From a virus, in the IMG/VR virus record IMGVR_UViG_3300033146_005170, positions 1 to 64,000 of that record: a stretch of 64,000 nucleotides of DNA. One strand, written 5' to 3'. Both the position numbers and the translations under genes were made by a program. Positions 12,967-25,892 of the stretch are shown in pieces. The notes below the pieces were generated by a model. The model did no database searches. It worked only from the letters and a program-made list of their open reading frames with translations, and was not told the DNA's origin. The first letter of the stretch is position 1. Each line of letters starts with the position of its first letter.

Positions 12967-13058
12967 TTTATGTCCCTTCTGAACCAAATAAATTGTAAAA
13001 TGGCATTAAAGATACTTGCTAGAGCGCCTAGTACTAAAAATGAGTAGACTACTGTCAT
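12963..13058 (-). CDS. 31-residue membrane micro-protein
   Basis: A short frame (MTVVYSFLVLGALASIFNAI...) linked by ATGA overlaps to the nuclease gene before it and the sbcD-like gene after it. The product is one hydrophobic helix with a basic tail (WFRRDIK). The double overlap argues for translation by coupling and against chance. Function unknown. Confidence 0.55.
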   Translation of the reverse strand: MTVVYSFLVLGALASIFNAILQFIWFRRDIK

Positions 13059-13486
13059 ACTTGCCACCATTTATATTCTTTACATTGTTTATAAAACTGA
13101 AGTTCTTCCCAACGCCAGCTAGCTTTTTTACTTTTTGCTTTAGCTAAAACTTCACTAAAAGGTACAAAATAAAATTCATTAGTAGGAATTCTATGAATAA
13201 TAAATATAGATTTTGCACCTGCAAAAGACCATCTTTGAGCATGTCCAATTTGTTTACTAGAAATATTTTTTAATGGAAATCTAGCTACATCATTTGAAGA
13301 TTTAATTTCTACAAGATAAGTTTGTCCATTATAGATCGCTAAGCGATCTGAAGGCTGATTAGTAACCAAATTTCTAGCTGCATGGGTATCTATAAATTTA
13401 TAAAAGACAAATGACTTTGTCAATGCCATTTCTTCTTTGTATAAGTTATCAAAGATTTTCTCAGTGTCTTTACCATCGTTTCTCAT
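13055..13486 (-). CDS. PD-(D/E)XK nuclease, possible Holliday junction resolvase
   Basis: The ATG at 13486 is preferred because AGGAGG precedes it by 6 nt; the product is 143 residues. The motif PSDRLAIYNGQTYLVEIKSS gives Asp47, Glu60 and Lys62, the D...ExK core of this nuclease superfamily, followed by a helix with Gln79 and His82 (SSKQIGHAQRW) as in RecU/Hjc-type resolvases. It lies next to the SbcCD pair, fitting a role in resolving recombination intermediates. A restriction-type nuclease of the same fold is the alternative. Confidence 0.65.
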   Translation of the reverse strand: MRNDGKDTEKIFDNLYKEEMALTKSFVFYKFIDTHAARNLVTNQPSDRLAIYNGQTYLVEIKSSNDVARFPLKNISSKQIGHAQRWSFAGAKSIFIIHRIPTNEFYFVPFSEVLAKAKSKKASWRWEELQFYKQCKEYKWWQV

Positions 13487-13871
13487 AGATTTCCTCCTGA
13501 TAGATCCCATTAAAATGAATTACAGTGATAAGAGCATAGCCCCTAAAGAACTTTTCTGGTAACTTTACACCCTCAATGTCAAAATAAGTTCTATGAATTA
13601 TTAAAATTTCAGGTCTAAATTGCATCAAAGATTTAACCCCTCCAAAATGAATATCTGTAGTTCTTTTTGGATAGATAAAATGCCAAGCTTTTGGAAGAGC
13701 TATAAGCTGTTTATAGTTCTTAATAGTCTCCCAAGTACGCTTACCTACAAATACATTTTGATCTTTAATAAGATTTCTTAGCCATTTTTTATCTTCAGGA
13801 GGTCCCCAAGCAACGCTACCATCATAACTAGCATAGCAGTTATTTTTTGATAAAAGTAATACTCCAAGCAT
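13470..13871 (-). CDS. Dihydrofolate-reductase-like protein
   Basis: 133 residues, shorter than usual DHFR (about 160). The segment PPEDKKWLRNL...NVFVGKRTWETI matches the DHFR alignment W..P.D..WF...T...V.MGR.TWESI, and ILIIHRTYF sits where the IMVIGGG nucleotide loop is expected, but the GG is missing. It could regenerate tetrahydrofolate for the nearby TS-fold enzyme. The missing glycine loop and short C-terminus leave activity uncertain. SD GAGGAT precedes the ATG. Confidence 0.5.
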   Translation of the reverse strand: MLGVLLLSKNNCYASYDGSVAWGPPEDKKWLRNLIKDQNVFVGKRTWETIKNYKQLIALPKAWHFIYPKRTTDIHFGGVKSLMQFRPEILIIHRTYFDIEGVKLPEKFFRGYALITVIHFNGIYQEEIYEKRW

Positions 13872-14347: not shown

Positions 14348-14740
14348 CTAAAATTCCTTTACTTCTACGAGATCTCCTAAAGAAATTAGACTAGACCAAT
14401 TTTCTTCAAGATCTATTTCCTGACGAAAAGCTTTAAATAGAGTAACTCGATCTATCTTTTCTGTGATATTATATTTTTTAGTAAGATAGCTAGCTATCAA
14501 GGCTCCATTAAAAATTTTTAAATTACTAGTTATGAGTAAATTAAGCTCTCCTTTCCTATAAGATTCAAAAGCATACTTACCGTAATGATCATAGCCTTCG
14601 CTCTTTTCATAGCCATCACTTAGCAATTTATCATTAGTTTCTTGTAAATCACTAACTAAAGCTATTATATCATCATCCGTATTTAAAATAGGTGGATTAA
14701 GTAAATTTCGACTACCAGATTTAAAAGCTTTTATAAACAT
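14348..14740 (-). CDS. Conserved-looking phage protein, unknown
   Basis: 130 residues after a strong GGAGGT site. The segments YGKYAFESYRKGELNLLIT and YNITEKIDRVTLFKAFR look conserved in type. Flanked by the dCMP deaminase and a basic protein in the nucleotide-metabolism operon. Function unknown. Confidence 0.55.
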   Translation of the reverse strand: MFIKAFKSGSRNLLNPPILNTDDDIIALVSDLQETNDKLLSDGYEKSEGYDHYGKYAFESYRKGELNLLITSNLKIFNGALIASYLTKKYNITEKIDRVTLFKAFRQEIDLEENWSSLISLGDLVEVKEF

Positions 14741-15135
14741 TGCTCTACCTCCATATATTGTGAGAGGTATTCTAGTACCTCTTCATATTCTTCTTTCACT
14801 GCTCCATATACCAATTTTGCTGGCTTATGGCCAATAATATTCTTTGCACATTCCCAGCAAGGAGCTAAAGTAACATAAAAAGTTGAACCTTTTGTTTGTC
14901 TAACTGATACTTGGCGAATAGCATTCATTTCAGCATGATGAACTCGCCAGTGCTCAGTATTTCCATCCTCATCCTCACATCTATTGCTATCGCCTTCGAT
15001 AGTGCCATTTACGCCCATAGAAATAAGTCTTTTATCTTTAACTATTAGACAAGCTACTTGAGCTTTTTTACAAGAAGATTGTGTAGCAGCGAGTTCTGCA
15101 AAAGTTATCCAAAAATCATCTCCCCATCTACTCAT
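14731..15135 (-). CDS. dCMP deaminase
   Basis: 134 residues with the cytidine/deoxycytidylate deaminase zinc site: HAE at 67-69 (zinc His and proton-shuttle Glu) and PCWEC with Cys93 and Cys96. Expected to convert dCMP to dUMP, feeding thymidylate synthesis and lowering the unmodified dCMP pool. The ATGA overlap with the TS-fold gene immediately upstream places the two enzymes in one translational unit. Confidence 0.88.
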   Translation of the reverse strand: MSRWGDDFWITFAELAATQSSCKKAQVACLIVKDKRLISMGVNGTIEGDSNRCEDEDGNTEHWRVHHAEMNAIRQVSVRQTKGSTFYVTLAPCWECAKNIIGHKPAKLVYGAVKEEYEEVLEYLSQYMEVEQCL

Positions 15136-15959
15136 GTTACAACCTTCACTCTAAAAATAGCCTCTGGTTTAACTTTGTATTCAGGAACTTTTATACTATC
15201 AATAAAATCATCCTTGTCTTTTCTAACTTTTTTAATAGTCCATTCAGGGTCTATTTCTACTCTATAAGTACTAGGCTTAGCAGACCTTTTCATATACTCA
15301 ACAACTGCATCATATTGGTTTTCATAAACATGAAGATGGGCTATAGAATAAAAAAGTTCTCCTACACCTACTTTTAAAGTATTAGCTAAAAGGTTACTTA
15401 AAATAGTGTACATCATAATATCATAAGGTAAGCCTAAATAGGCATCATTACTTCGCAAAGTTAAATGGCAATTAAGCTGGCCTTCTATGATATTAAATAC
15501 AGCTGTATAAGGACAAGGTACATTTTTATGTTGAAATACTAAGTCTGATGGATGCCAAGACATTAAAACTTGTTGTCTTGATGAAGGATCTCTACTTAGA
15601 TTTAGTAAAATCTGATTAATCTGATTAAAACCATAAGCTGTAGCCCATCTATAACCATAAGCTCCTTTAACTATACCTGGAGAGTCTTCAAAAGCTTTCC
15701 AAATACTAGTGTATCTATTAATCCATTCAGTTTCTTGAGTTCCAGATAAAAACCAAGTAACCTCAGCAGCTCCAGTTCTAGGATACATTTTTCTAATGTT
15801 TGACAATGGCCAATAGTTCATATTCCATCTAAAAGCATAACCATGTGCAGCTGTTATGCTTGAATTAGTTCTTTGGTTTTTTTGAACCTTTCCATGTTTG
15901 CTAAGATACCTAAATACCTTTCTATGAAGATAGTCAAAATTATTTTCCAGCTGAAACAT
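15132..15959 (-). CDS. Thymidylate-synthase-fold enzyme with dCMP-type Asp (putative dCMP hydroxymethylase or methylase)
   Basis: 275 residues. Catalytic core: Glu66 (AEVTWFLSG), nucleophile Cys149 (NVPCPYTA), phosphate-binding RSND 169-172, then LGLPYDI and His210/Tyr212 (HLHVY). Spacings match E. coli TS exactly (C146-R166-N177-H207-Y209 against C149-R169-D180-H210-Y212). The Asn177 equivalent, which selects dUMP, is Asp180 here. T4 dCMP hydroxymethylase has Asp at the same place (Asp179), and Asn-to-Asp TS mutants prefer dCMP. The substrate is therefore inferred to be dCMP, giving 5-hydroxymethyl- or 5-methyl-dCMP with methylene-THF. A plain dTMP synthase is less likely. Confidence 0.8.
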   Translation of the reverse strand: MFQLENNFDYLHRKVFRYLSKHGKVQKNQRTNSSITAAHGYAFRWNMNYWPLSNIRKMYPRTGAAEVTWFLSGTQETEWINRYTSIWKAFEDSPGIVKGAYGYRWATAYGFNQINQILLNLSRDPSSRQQVLMSWHPSDLVFQHKNVPCPYTAVFNIIEGQLNCHLTLRSNDAYLGLPYDIMMYTILSNLLANTLKVGVGELFYSIAHLHVYENQYDAVVEYMKRSAKPSTYRVEIDPEWTIKKVRKDKDDFIDSIKVPEYKVKPEAIFRVKVVT

Positions 15960-17859
15960 CTAAAGCCCTTTCTATATTTTTAGGAGAAAAATCTCCTTTA
16001 AGTTCAATTTGATCTGCAAAATTAATACCTATACTAGCTTCAGCTATTAGTGGTACTGAAAAGCCTCTAGGAGTTCTTTCCATTATTTCAACTGCTTGTT
16101 TTATAAGCTCTGAAGCTTTTTCTTTCTTACAAGACCATACAAATTCATCGTGTACAGGAGCAATAAATTTATAATCTTCGTGAAATAAAAGATTTGATTC
16201 ATCTAGAGATAGCATACTAAGTTTCATAAGCTCACCAGCTGAGCCTTGAATAGTAAAATTTAGACCTTGATTTTCTGCTGATTTTGCTAGAGCTTTTATA
16301 GGACTGGCTATATCTGGTAAACGTCTTCTTCTACCAAAGATAGTAAGAACATATTTATTAGTCTTTAAAAAAGCCATAATCTTATTTACATAGTCATAAA
16401 AATAGCCTTTATAACCTAGTTTATGTGCAGCTAGAAAATTTTCAGCCTCAGCTTCACTACAGTTTAGTAAATCAAATTTACTTAATCTAGCAGCTCCAGC
16501 TAAATAAAGAGCAGCGAAGTTTAGAGTTTTACCCTTTTGACGATTAGCTTTCTGCTCTTTATCACCTTTGTTTATTAGCTCTTTCATTTTATCATAGTCT
16601 AAACCACTAATATTGGTTCCAGATAAAGTGTGCATATCTTTTTTGGTACGATAACCATCTATTAACTTAGGATCTTGAGAAACATGAGCAGCTATACGCA
16701 TTTCTATCTGTGACCAGTCAATAGAAACAATACAGTCGTGATTAAATTTTGAAAAAGGTACTATTACTTTTCTTACTTTAACACCCTCACCTCTTTTACT
16801 TAATTGTTGAAGATTTGGTGCTTGCATAGAAAATCGACCTGTCACTGTACCTGTTTGTCTAATTTGTGAATGAATTTTACCATCAGGGTATATTAACTTT
16901 GGATAAGGCTTATAATAAAGCTTAAGTCTAGTTTCAACTTTTCTAATTTCACTAAAAGCCTTAATGACCTTATGAGTTTCGCCATATTTAGCTTCAAGTT
17001 CAAATAGTGACTCTTTATCTGTACTAGGAACACCAGTCTTTTTAGACACTTTATGTGGCTGTAGACCTAAATCTTTAAATAAAAATTTAGAGACTTGAGC
17101 TGGACTATTAAGATTAATATTAGCCAATTCAGGAAATTCATCCAATAACCTATTCTTAATCTCAATATCTTCAGCTTGAATTTTATCAAGCATGGCTAAA
17201 TCAACTTGTTGGCCTTGGCGATAGTGCTTAGCAACAATTTTGATTAAATCCATTTCAAATAATCTATAATAATCCATATTAACATAGTCTAGATAAAATT
17301 TATAAAGCTTTAAAGTCCAAATAGTATCAGACATACCATAATCAAAACCTTCTTCTGCAGTTATGTCTTTCATAGTTCCATTGCCAACGGTTTCAGCATA
17401 TGAAGGCATAACATGACCAAAAAGCCTTTTTACACTAGGTTTTAAACCTTGGGCATTATTTTCATTTGCTAAGACTCCCATAATCATGGTATCAAGAAGT
17501 TCTCCTTTAAAGTCATAGCCATGGTTTAAAAAAATGCCATATTCAAAAGCCAAGTTATGTCCTACCATTTGTTTACAATCTTTTAAGATCTTAGGTAAAT
17601 AGTCATAACTTAATCTTAAGTCTTCTCCCTCTTGTTTATGATTAAAATCAAAATAAAATTCTAAGCCATCTTCTAAGTACAGCTGTAGAGATACCATTTT
17701 AGACTCTAGTTGATTAAGAGGTCTTTGTTTAGGCGAAAGATCCATAAACCAAGCATTTTCATAAGGATTATAGGTCTCTATATCAACAGAGTAAAGAGTC
17801 TCTTTAGAATTCTCCAAGGCTTTTAAAGCCTCATTAATATTTGTTTTATTTATAATCAT
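15940..17859 (-). CDS. Family A DNA polymerase with 3'-5' exonuclease domain
   Basis: 639 residues. Exo I is VDIETYNP (Asp26, Glu28); Exo II is NLAFEYGIF, with Glu in place of the usual Asp; Exo III is YGMSD. The polymerase domain has RQTGTVTGRFSMQAPNLQQL, motif A DWSQIEMRI, motif B RQKGKTLNFAALYLAG (Phe at the E. coli 762 position) and motif C VHDEF. The 5' nuclease is encoded separately by the adjoining gene (ATGA overlap), the usual phage arrangement. Main replicative polymerase. Confidence 0.93.
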   Translation of the reverse strand: MIINKTNINEALKALENSKETLYSVDIETYNPYENAWFMDLSPKQRPLNQLESKMVSLQLYLEDGLEFYFDFNHKQEGEDLRLSYDYLPKILKDCKQMVGHNLAFEYGIFLNHGYDFKGELLDTMIMGVLANENNAQGLKPSVKRLFGHVMPSYAETVGNGTMKDITAEEGFDYGMSDTIWTLKLYKFYLDYVNMDYYRLFEMDLIKIVAKHYRQGQQVDLAMLDKIQAEDIEIKNRLLDEFPELANINLNSPAQVSKFLFKDLGLQPHKVSKKTGVPSTDKESLFELEAKYGETHKVIKAFSEIRKVETRLKLYYKPYPKLIYPDGKIHSQIRQTGTVTGRFSMQAPNLQQLSKRGEGVKVRKVIVPFSKFNHDCIVSIDWSQIEMRIAAHVSQDPKLIDGYRTKKDMHTLSGTNISGLDYDKMKELINKGDKEQKANRQKGKTLNFAALYLAGAARLSKFDLLNCSEAEAENFLAAHKLGYKGYFYDYVNKIMAFLKTNKYVLTIFGRRRRLPDIASPIKALAKSAENQGLNFTIQGSAGELMKLSMLSLDESNLLFHEDYKFIAPVHDEFVWSCKKEKASELIKQAVEIMERTPRGFSVPLIAEASIGINFADQIELKGDFSPKNIERALDVSAGK

Positions 17860-18584
17860 AGCATTATTCCTTTTCTACCGCAGTAAGCTATAATATCTTT
17901 TTTAGCTCCTATACAGGTATCTATTTCTTTAGGCTCTATAGGCGTTGCTAGCTTCCAAGACATACAGGCTTGTTCAGTCATCATTTTAGGATCATAATCA
18001 CAATTTCCAATTGAAAAATGGTGATTGTACAGCTCTCTATCACTAAAAGTTAGCTTATTCCAAGCTGCTTTTCCAAAGCCTTTTTTACCTGGAATTTTAT
18101 CTGAAGGATCTCCAACTAAAGTTTTATATAGATCAATATGTCCTGGTATGCAATTGAATTTAACTCCCACAAGTTCTCTAGTTACTTTAGTGGTGGCATT
18201 TAAAAGAATTTCTACTTCTTTATTTATTAAAGGCCAAAGATCTTTGTCATTAGAGATAACTATATCTCCTTTTTTGGCATTTAGTCTTAGATAATCATCT
18301 GCTTCAGCATCATTTATATAAAGAACTTTATTTTTAGTGTAGCAAAGGGCCATACCAATACAGTTCTTTAAAACCTCAAAATAAACTGGATCTTCACCCA
18401 TATTACGCCCTTTTTTATAGTCAGCAAAAATTTCTCTTCTAGCTTTTCTAGAAGTTGGGGTATCACTAACTAAAGTCATAGGCTCGTGTTTACGTTTTAA
18501 AAGAAGATCATACATAAGTTGATAAGGATTACCTCCTCCATGATAGATTCTTTTAATGTAATTATTTAGATCAATATAAATCAT
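17856..18584 (-). CDS. 5'-3' exonuclease / flap endonuclease
   Basis: The ATG at 18584 (242 residues) is taken because GGAG is well spaced from it and almost touches the ATG two codons earlier. Motifs: IYIDLNNY, RKARREIFADYKKGR, NDAEADDYL, SNDKDLWPL and the helix-hairpin-helix LVGDPSDKIPGKKGFGKA. These are the acidic metal site and DNA-binding HhH of the Pol I N-domain/T5 FEN family. It should remove RNA primers and 5' flaps for the polymerase encoded next to it. Confidence 0.9.
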   Translation of the reverse strand: MIYIDLNNYIKRIYHGGGNPYQLMYDLLLKRKHEPMTLVSDTPTSRKARREIFADYKKGRNMGEDPVYFEVLKNCIGMALCYTKNKVLYINDAEADDYLRLNAKKGDIVISNDKDLWPLINKEVEILLNATTKVTRELVGVKFNCIPGHIDLYKTLVGDPSDKIPGKKGFGKAAWNKLTFSDRELYNHHFSIGNCDYDPKMMTEQACMSWKLATPIEPKEIDTCIGAKKDIIAYCGRKGIML

Positions 18585-18861
18585 CACCATTCTCCGCTAA
18601 ATAGGCTTCTATATAATCGATATAGTCTTGCCATACTTCTAAATTATTTTTTGGCGTACGAGGATCTACAGTTTCTATCTTATGATAAAAATACTCTAGT
18701 AACGTTTCCAAATCATAAAGATTAGCAAGACCACCTTTAGAAGTAACTACAGAGCCAACAACTGCATCTTGACACTTATGCAATTGTTGTCTAACGCTAC
18801 TTCTACTTTTACCATTTCGTAGTACTATAAAGTCTACTAATGAATTACTTAATGTTGCCAT
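18571..18861 (-). CDS. Unknown 96-residue protein
   Basis: Overlaps the kinase-like gene upstream and the flap exonuclease downstream. The N-terminus (LVDFIVLRNGKSRSSVRQQLHKC) might form a small helical DNA-binding unit; the C-terminus is acidic (EAYLAENGDDLY). No family recognised. The upstream site is weak (GGATTT), so translation is probably coupled. Confidence 0.5.
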   Translation of the reverse strand: MATLSNSLVDFIVLRNGKSRSSVRQQLHKCQDAVVGSVVTSKGGLANLYDLETLLEYFYHKIETVDPRTPKNNLEVWQDYIDYIEAYLAENGDDLY

Positions 18862-19340
18862 TTTAAATCCAACATAGTAATTTTAATCTCTGGCATATTT
18901 GCTTTTACAAAACCAAGAGCGTCATGATAGGCTTCTCTAATTTGATCATATCCATAAGCTTCAAAAGGATCATTTTTATCATACTCTTCAAAAGGAGTAT
19001 TAGTAAGATAGATAATTTCATCTATCTCTGGTTTAACAATACTTTTATAAAGATTAAGAATAATCAAAGGTGGCATATTACCTAGTAAATAGCCTTGATA
19101 AACGAGCATGCTAAGCATACCTCTATCAGCAATCAACTGTATAGGATTTTTTCTCCAGTCTTGCCAAAACTGCATTTCATTGGCAAAGAATAAAAAAGTA
19201 GCTGCTGTACCTTCTATATTAGACTTAAGTAATAAGTCTCTAAAAACCCCATTTGGTAAATGTAATTTTTCTAAATTAGAGTTATTAACAAGAGTGGTTT
19301 TGCCACATTTATCTGGGCCTTCTACTAAAATTATTCCCAC
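18849..19340 (-). CDS. Deoxynucleoside monophosphate (dTMP-type) kinase
   Basis: 163 residues with GTG start after AAGGAG. The P-loop is EGPDKCGKTT (residues 7-16), and ADRGMLSMLVYQG matches the DR..S..AYQG signature of thymidylate kinases. Shorter than cellular TMPK (about 210). It should phosphorylate dTMP and possibly the 5-modified dCMP made by the TS-fold enzyme, the role T4 gp1 plays for hydroxymethyl-dCMP. Substrate range is inferred. Confidence 0.75.
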   Translation of the reverse strand: MGIILVEGPDKCGKTTLVNNSNLEKLHLPNGVFRDLLLKSNIEGTAATFLFFANEMQFWQDWRKNPIQLIADRGMLSMLVYQGYLLGNMPPLIILNLYKSIVKPEIDEIIYLTNTPFEEYDKNDPFEAYGYDQIREAYHDALGFVKANMPEIKITMLDLKWQH

Positions 19341-20572: not shown

Positions 20573-21142
20573 TTAAATCTTTGCCATTAAATTAAATTTT
20601 AAGGCTATGACTAATTTTTCTTTTGGACTAAGTTTTTTAAGTCCTCTTATAACAAAGTCAAAATTATCTTCTTGTTCTACTATTTCTAAAGTATCTTCTG
20701 TATTATGATCAATATGATCTAGCTCAGTAAGCCCACACTTATCAGTTTGAAGTTCTAAAACTTGAATTATTAAATGTTTATTCATTCCTAACTCTTTAGC
20801 AATTAAATTAGCATCAGGGATAAAATCATGAATTTTTGCAAAGTCTTCAATAAATTTGTAAACTTTAAATCTATTATAGACAATATGACTTGGCAGTTTT
20901 AATACTCTAGATCTAGAGGTAAGAGCATATGTAATAGCTTGTTTTATCCAAAAGCCTGCATAAGTAGAGAACTTAGTACCATAAGAAGGATCATAATGCT
21001 CTATAGCATTTAGTAAGCCAATACTACCTTCTTGAATAAGATCTTGAAAGTCTAAGCCTTTACTTGTTTTTCGATATTTATTAGCTATTATTTTCACTAA
21101 ATATAAGTAATCTTCTACTAGGTCATTTATAAATGGGTCCAC
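20573..21142 (-). CDS. Sigma-70 family factor lacking region 4.2
   Basis: 189 residues. Region 2 is clear: DFQDLIQEGSIGLLNAIE (31-48), then YDPSYGTKFSTYAGFWIKQA and LKLPSHIV. Region 3-like helices follow (DANLIAKELGMNKHLI). LKKLSPKEKLVIALKFNL (168-185) corresponds to the start of region 4, LSPREREVL.LRFGL, but the frame stops four codons later and the -35-binding HTH is absent; no coding continuation is visible downstream. It should bind core RNA polymerase and melt -10 elements, perhaps needing a partner for -35 contact. Overlaps the SNF2 helicase gene by 16 bp. Confidence 0.85.
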   Translation of the reverse strand: MDPFINDLVEDYLYLVKIIANKYRKTSKGLDFQDLIQEGSIGLLNAIEHYDPSYGTKFSTYAGFWIKQAITYALTSRSRVLKLPSHIVYNRFKVYKFIEDFAKIHDFIPDANLIAKELGMNKHLIIQVLELQTDKCGLTELDHIDHNTEDTLEIVEQEDNFDFVIRGLKKLSPKEKLVIALKFNLMAKI

Positions 21143-25319: not shown

Positions 25320-25892
25320 TTATAAAGGTAGACGACTAGTTTGTACCTTTAGATATGTATCTTCTAAATAGTTATAAGTTTCTTCAAAAGTCCAAGCTTT
25401 ATCTAGACAGTGTACTAAAAAAGCATTATCTTCAATAGGCTGGAGATTAGTACCCCAGTTTTTAAAGTATTCTCCTTGCTTATAGCCATAATCTTGACGA
25501 AGTTTATTTAAAGCTTGTTTACCAAGAATATAATTAACAACTGCCGGATTTTGATTAACTATTAACCTAATAGCTTGATTATATTGATCTGTAGTAAAGG
25601 TGTAGGTTAGCTTTCTAAGAAAAAGGTAATCAGACTCTGCTGGTGCAAGCTCTATAATCGGCTTAAGAGGTTGCTTTTTGTAATAGGCAACATTAATTAT
25701 AAAGATAACTATATCTGCCATTTCAATTAGGATATTTAACTCGTCTCTGTCTACTTTTTTCCAGTCAGCATAACCTAAACTAGCAGTTAGTTCTCCAATT
25801 TCTTCTAAACCTGCAAGCCACATTACTTCAGCATTAGAGTCCATAGTCTTTTGCCAAGCAAATTGTCTTGTGATTATATCTGAAATATTCAT
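25320..25892 (-). CDS. All-alpha dUTPase/dCTPase-like pyrophosphatase
   Basis: 190 residues. WLAGLEEIGELTASLGYADWKK followed by ELNILIEMADIVIFI carries the paired E..E and E..D metal-binding helices of the dimeric dUTPase/MazG-like superfamily. Substrate could be dUTP, dCTP or both. Considered with the dCMP-type TS enzyme, a T4 gp56-like dCTP/dUTP pyrophosphatase role is attractive but inferred. The start follows AAAGGATAAATA. Confidence 0.65.
   Translation of the reverse strand: MNISDIITRQFAWQKTMDSNAEVMWLAGLEEIGELTASLGYADWKKVDRDELNILIEMADIVIFIINVAYYKKQPLKPIIELAPAESDYLFLRKLTYTFTTDQYNQAIRLIVNQNPAVVNYILGKQALNKLRQDYGYKQGEYFKNWGTNLQPIEDNAFLVHCLDKAWTFEETYNYLEDTYLKVQTSRLPL

Follow-up and report, generated by a model that had tools for sequence, protein, structure and literature searches.

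The TS-family gene of this virus probably encodes a dCMP methylase of the Xp12 type, whose product, 5-methyl-dCMP, would replace dC in the phage DNA. The enzyme would be a divergent member of a known, rarely recognised enzyme type. This reading is built on the fold of the 275 amino acid protein, its catalytic residues, an Asp at the base-selecting position, an Asn/Pro motif around the catalytic Cys, an adjoining deaminase gene and a genome in which no second TS was found; from these we infer the substrate, the methyl product, the replacement in DNA and the thymidylate route, and for the function, motif and context weigh more than the tree. Positions below are those of the window, the whole 64,000 nucleotide stretch analysed (positions 1 to 64,000 of IMG/VR virus record IMGVR_UViG_3300033146_005170). 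The gene and the codons that bear on its specificity are:

15132-15959, minus strand, predicted dCMP 5-methyltransferase using methylene-THF, TS fold, 275 amino acids (Pfam PF00303, Thymidylat_synt, 4.3e-48; AF2; Foldseek)
15420-15422, minus strand, codon of D180, the base selector (E. coli TS N177; T4 gp42 D179; alignments)
15510-15512, minus strand, codon of P150 at Cys+1 (E. coli TS H147; motif tabulation; position 147 is linked to cytosine modification, PMC8670742)
15513-15515, minus strand, codon of the catalytic C149 (E. coli TS C146; alignments)
15522-15524, minus strand, codon of N146 at Cys-3 (L in TS, D in the T4 and SPO1 hydroxymethylases, N in the NP phage group defined below; motif tabulation)

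The initial annotation had located the gene correctly; it is encoded by the minus strand, in a long replication operon of that strand, and the opposite strand has many stops there. The virus record is 74,014 bases long and probably represents a whole genome assembled as a circle; its first 60 bases are repeated identically at its end. The window is strongly depleted in CpG (odds 0.30 at 33% GC) with no excess of TpG/CpA, and the corresponding CpG odds of a sister virus, JALWRR010000076.1, are 0.47 at 37% GC.

The AF2 model of the protein has a pLDDT of 91.7, its top Foldseek matches are all TS (TM 0.83-0.88 to E. coli TS), and the crystal structure of L. casei TS N229D:dCMP (PDB 1njc) is among its structural matches. 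The TS fold and the catalytic Cys, Arg and His/Tyr place it in the TS superfamily PF00303. Alignments bear out the proposal, made from the sequence alone, that C149, R169, D180, H210 and Y212 correspond at identical spacing to E. coli TS C146, R166, N177, H207 and Y209, and they show that D169 and E58 of that enzyme are retained as D172 and E66; the equivalents of ThyA Y94 and W80 are shared as well. The protein differs from ThyA in having Asp for Asn177, Pro for His147, Asn for Leu143, Phe for Trp83 and His for Asp205, so that the canonical dTMP synthase signature of Asn 177, His 147 and Leu 143 is replaced by D180, P150 and N146.

In TS, Asn177 is the dUMP selector, and Asp mutants favour dCMP (PMC8670742). 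The Asp reported at this position in the initial annotation aligns with both E. coli N177 and T4 Asp179. By these alignments D180 is not a chance substitution, because Asp is kept by the syntenic sister virus, whose TS homologue is 45% identical, and by all annotated phage relatives examined. Asn occupies the selector site in 78 of 78 readable viral TS from an independent scan whose seed was a Bacillus phage enzyme, and the one distant match returned by an IMG/VR search with the 275 amino acid query alone also has the canonical Asn. Asp was found in 80/80 members of the A1-seeded scan, a count that the search pattern GLPYD itself imposes in part and that was excluded from the evidence. In the MetaGPA study no TS positions were more strongly associated with cytosine-modified viral contigs than 177 (Asp) and 147 (PMC8670742), and the protein departs from TS at both (D180 and P150). 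Because of the selector Asp, these two positions and the N229D:dCMP structural match, the enzyme very likely acts on dCMP. The earlier prediction of a 5-substituted dCMP product, not dTMP, draws support from the same observations, from the behaviour of the TS mutants and from similarity to the Xp12-type group. We note that a second viral TS group (23 loci) combines Asp177 with an otherwise canonical Leu and His, lacks a deaminase/DHFR module nearby, and is possibly another origin of dCMP specificity.

The nature of the group added is suggested by the residues flanking the catalytic Cys. Asp145 of T4 dCMP hydroxymethylase, at Cys-3, primes the water for its attack; the D145N enzyme has no activity, and the TS residue at this place is Leu (PMC6400193). 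In our tabulated alignments Cys-3 is Asp in T4 gp42, in 80/80 gp42 relatives and in SPO1 gp29 (the scan yielded no gp29 relatives), and likewise in five D177 enzymes of phages with 5hmC-carbamoyltransferase homologues, namely those of Xp15, Effie, MD-2021a and BF503P2 (two); these five have the S-N-Y and C-T motifs of T4 as well. The two enzymes of Bacteroides phage BF503P2 are encoded by different hydroxymethylase-type TS genes (14456-15262 and 17336-18016 in that phage) beside its carbamoyltransferase homologue. Cys-3 is Leu in the canonical viral TS of the Bacillus phage-seeded scan. It is Asn in the present protein, in its sister virus homologue and in 54/57 loci of a D177 group whose catalytic Cys is followed by Pro, here called the NP group for its Asn and Pro (some of the 57 loci are on contigs that are near copies). 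Like the present protein, this group keeps a TS-like C-terminal tail (PEVIE, MPVAI) that T4 gp42 lacks. Positions Cys-3, Cys+1 and 177 appear, in the sequences tabulated, to separate TS (L/H/N), dCMP hydroxymethylases (D/T/D) and the Xp12-type group (N/P/D). We did not find this three-way rule, the contrast in TS gene number described below or the sister genome stated in the papers cited.

A dCMP hydroxymethylase like T4 gp42, in which water rather than hydride attacks the methylene intermediate to give 5-hydroxymethyl-dCMP and THF, was weighed first and dropped on Cys-3, Cys+1, the C-terminal tail and genome content; we regard it as unlikely. The comparison with T4 in the initial annotation holds for the TS fold, the catalytic Cys and the selector Asp (D180 = D179), but T4 Asp145 is Asn146 here, the residue found in the inactive T4 mutant, and the Xp12 dCMP methyltransferase is the better analogue. 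Beyond the shared Asp, a hydroxymethylase would fit the MetaGPA 5hmC/carbamoyl phages, in which a dCMP deaminase likewise accompanies the TS homologue (PMC8670742); their cytosine-modification cluster (TS, phosphoribosyl-ATP-PPase and dCMP deaminase) has Asp177, a changed position 147, the deaminase and MafB19 domain matches in common with this genome. Against it, the ORFs tested yielded neither a glycosyl- nor a carbamoyltransferase, no 5hmC-carbamoyltransferase homologue was found in the loci searched, NP loci included, and the hydroxymethylase motif is absent: the two residues before the catalytic Tyr are G-A rather than S-N, and Cys+1 is Pro rather than Thr. The Gly in question is G99 at the place of T4 S94, where Ser or Thr is expected of the T4 type, a difference that is weak alone, AXL1 having Ser here. 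The combination typical of SPO1-type dUMP hydroxymethylases, an Asn selector with Asp at Cys-3, is also absent.

Pairwise scores rank phage AXL1 (147 bits) above E. coli TS (106) and T4 gp42 (50 bits, 23% identity). The T4 clade is fully separated in the trees (100/100), and the protein groups with the NP class in trees built three ways, with weak support (80/24, 88/82 and 33/72); a tree joining it to the T4 clade, as a hydroxymethylase would allow, is not rejected (p 0.27).

The NP group includes gp63, the TS of phage AXL1, and the present enzyme has the N-x-P-C-P motif and Asp selector of that protein. AXL1 and Xp12 both belong to the genus Bosavirus (Bradleyvirinae) (PMC11946847) and have nearly identical gene orders (PMC9206674). 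5-Methylcytosine makes up 100% of the cytosine in Xp12 DNA (PMC7653180), and a THF-dependent deoxycytidylate methyltransferase is made in Xp12-infected cells (PMC8543423). AXL1 DNA is cut by only 5/31 restriction enzymes, in a pattern that resembles Xp12, and among NP-type phages restriction resistance is known to us for AXL1, DLP4, PaMx28 and PaMx74 only (PMC9206674). With AXL1 as a stand-in for Xp12, the NP-type TS is the probable source of the Xp12 dCMP methyltransferase activity; we found no paper assigning a gene to that activity, and the published Xp12 (MT664984) qPCR primer had no match in IMG/VR. To our knowledge base composition among NP-type phages is known for Xp12 only, which is placed there through its AXL1 proxy. 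The present virus is itself distant from these phages, with a TS about 29-34% identical to those of Xp12's genus mates, a C-terminus 6-7 residues longer than in relatives, and an AT-rich, unrelated genome.

Genes near the TS gene, and others that may act with it, are:

13055-13510, minus strand, RecU/Holliday-junction-resolvase-like nuclease, last gene of the conserved module (Pfam RecU 4.1e-7; PHROG 843 6.1e-15)
13470-13871, minus strand, short degenerate DHFR-like protein, 133 amino acids (Pfam DHFR_1 E=0.0027, below cut-off; 38% in the sister virus)
14731-15135, minus strand, dCMP deaminase family protein with HAE and PCxxC motifs, 4-base overlap with the TS gene (Pfam 2.8e-20; PHROG 174 7.8e-32; alignment; 61% in the sister virus)
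15940-17859, minus strand, family A DNA polymerase, directly upstream of the TS gene in the same operon (Pfam DNA_pol_A 9.2e-82)
18849-19340, minus strand, dTMP-kinase-like protein, candidate kinase for dTMP or 5-methyl-dCMP (PHROG 761 6.7e-10; Pfam 1.5e-5, below cut-off)
25320-25892, minus strand, all-alpha NTP pyrophosphatase-like protein (dUTPase_2/MazG class), about 10 kb from the TS gene (Pfam dUTPase_2 7.4e-4, below cut-off; PHROG 173 8.5e-5)

As expected of the Xp12 type, a dCMP-deaminase family gene adjoins the TS gene, and its product may deaminate dCMP or methylated dC nucleotides. This protein has GVNG in place of the described allosteric motif G(Y/W)N(A/G), because of which regulation by dCTP/dTTP may be lost, and the tryptophan-bearing segment of the AXL1 deaminase is missing from it. 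Among the NP loci, 53/57 have a dCMP deaminase and 38/57 a DHFR, and most have an NTP pyrophosphatase gene upstream and a nuclease of the kind found after DHFR in annotated phages. The present genome has the deaminase and the nuclease gene after DHFR in common with AXL1, but differs in that its NTP pyrophosphatase gene, which lies directly upstream of TS in most NP modules, is not adjacent (its product is a possible remover of dCTP/dUTP), its DHFR is degenerate, and an extra gene, 14348-14740 (PHROG 15166, 1.2e-20; no match in the sister virus), is inserted between the deaminase and DHFR-like genes. The DHFR-like protein keeps W22, D27 and G43, which are common to the module DHFRs, and its single-sequence fold prediction has a pLDDT of 36. 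A DHFR in the cluster would point to a reaction that yields dihydrofolate, as methylation does, an argument of little weight here given the degenerate state of the gene.

If the enzyme is a dCMP methylase, Cys149 would attack C6 of dCMP, Asp180 would recognise and protonate the cytosine ring, and methylene-THF would give first the carbon and then a hydride, yielding 5-methyl-dCMP and dihydrofolate. The product would be phosphorylated and take the place of dC in the phage DNA, where 5-methylcytosine could protect against host nucleases. The adjoining deaminase would meanwhile produce uracil or thymine nucleotides, possibly from methylated dC nucleotides, and lead to thymidylate, a link that the initial annotation did not draw.

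The number of TS genes is consistent with such a route. In the present genome and in 9/9 NP phages there is a single TS-family gene and ThyX is absent, unlike in T4, Effie and MD-2021a, which have a second TS beside the hydroxymethylase-type enzyme, and in Xp15, which has ThyX instead. A methylase would explain the single gene because its product can be deaminated to thymidylate, so that the phage may need no other TS; a hydroxymethylase would not explain it. Thymidylate may come from methylated dC nucleotides through the deaminase; a simpler alternative is that phage dUMP feeds the host TS. A 1982 paper on Xp12 is reportedly titled 'A new thymidylate biosynthesis', and the Xp12 deaminase forms dTTP from 5-methyl-dCTP without the host (PMC12088426).

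Slightly less probable than a hydroxymethylase is a dUMP-dependent thymidylate synthase that draws its substrate from the adjoining deaminase and tolerates Asp180. Deaminase, TS and DHFR form the textbook dTMP pathway, AXL1 is annotated in this way (PMC9206674), and this is the sole TS in the genome; the selector Asp, however, favours dCMP in TS mutants and in T4 gp42, H147 is replaced too, and D180 and P150 are conserved together in the sister virus and throughout a diverse group, which is no sporadic loss. Least probable is a dCMP enzyme that adds another C5 group, or whose methyl product serves the thymidylate route only and is kept out of DNA: the overlapping deaminase gene, the lack of a second TS and the absence of a directly assayed enzyme as precedent for Asn at Cys-3 would suit it, but Xp12, of the genus of the NP member AXL1, replaces all of its cytosine with 5mC (PMC7653180).

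The sister virus (71,673 bp; terminase 63%, portal 66%, PolA 61%) is syntenic over most of its length. Its TS homologue keeps the D, N and P residues, and it also has the deaminase, RecU-like nuclease, DHFR-like and dUTPase_2/MazG-like genes. The MAG that contains it bears the label Asgard group archaeon, so that it is either an Asgard virus or mis-binned. A sigma-70 region 2 protein (20573-21142, Pfam 4.4e-17; 45% in the sister virus) is encoded by both viruses and argues for a bacterial host.

More tentatively, the enzyme and the deaminase may constitute a reversed thymidylate pathway, in which cytosine is methylated and then deaminated to supply both 5-methylcytosine and thymine; the Xp12 scheme might then be widespread among phages with a gene annotated as TS, reaching a lineage whose sister genome is Asgard-binned. 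A phage gene labelled TS appears here to have been rebuilt for dCMP, most likely to make 5-methyl-dCMP for the phage DNA as in Xp12. Phage DNA modification decides sensitivity to restriction and CRISPR and is also a source of enzymes for epigenetics. If assays confirm the residue rule, many phage 'thymidylate synthases' could be reassigned from sequence, 5-methylcytosine phages, uncultured ones included, would become predictable, and the 1982 reports of a separate Xp12 thymidylate route would become testable across many phages.
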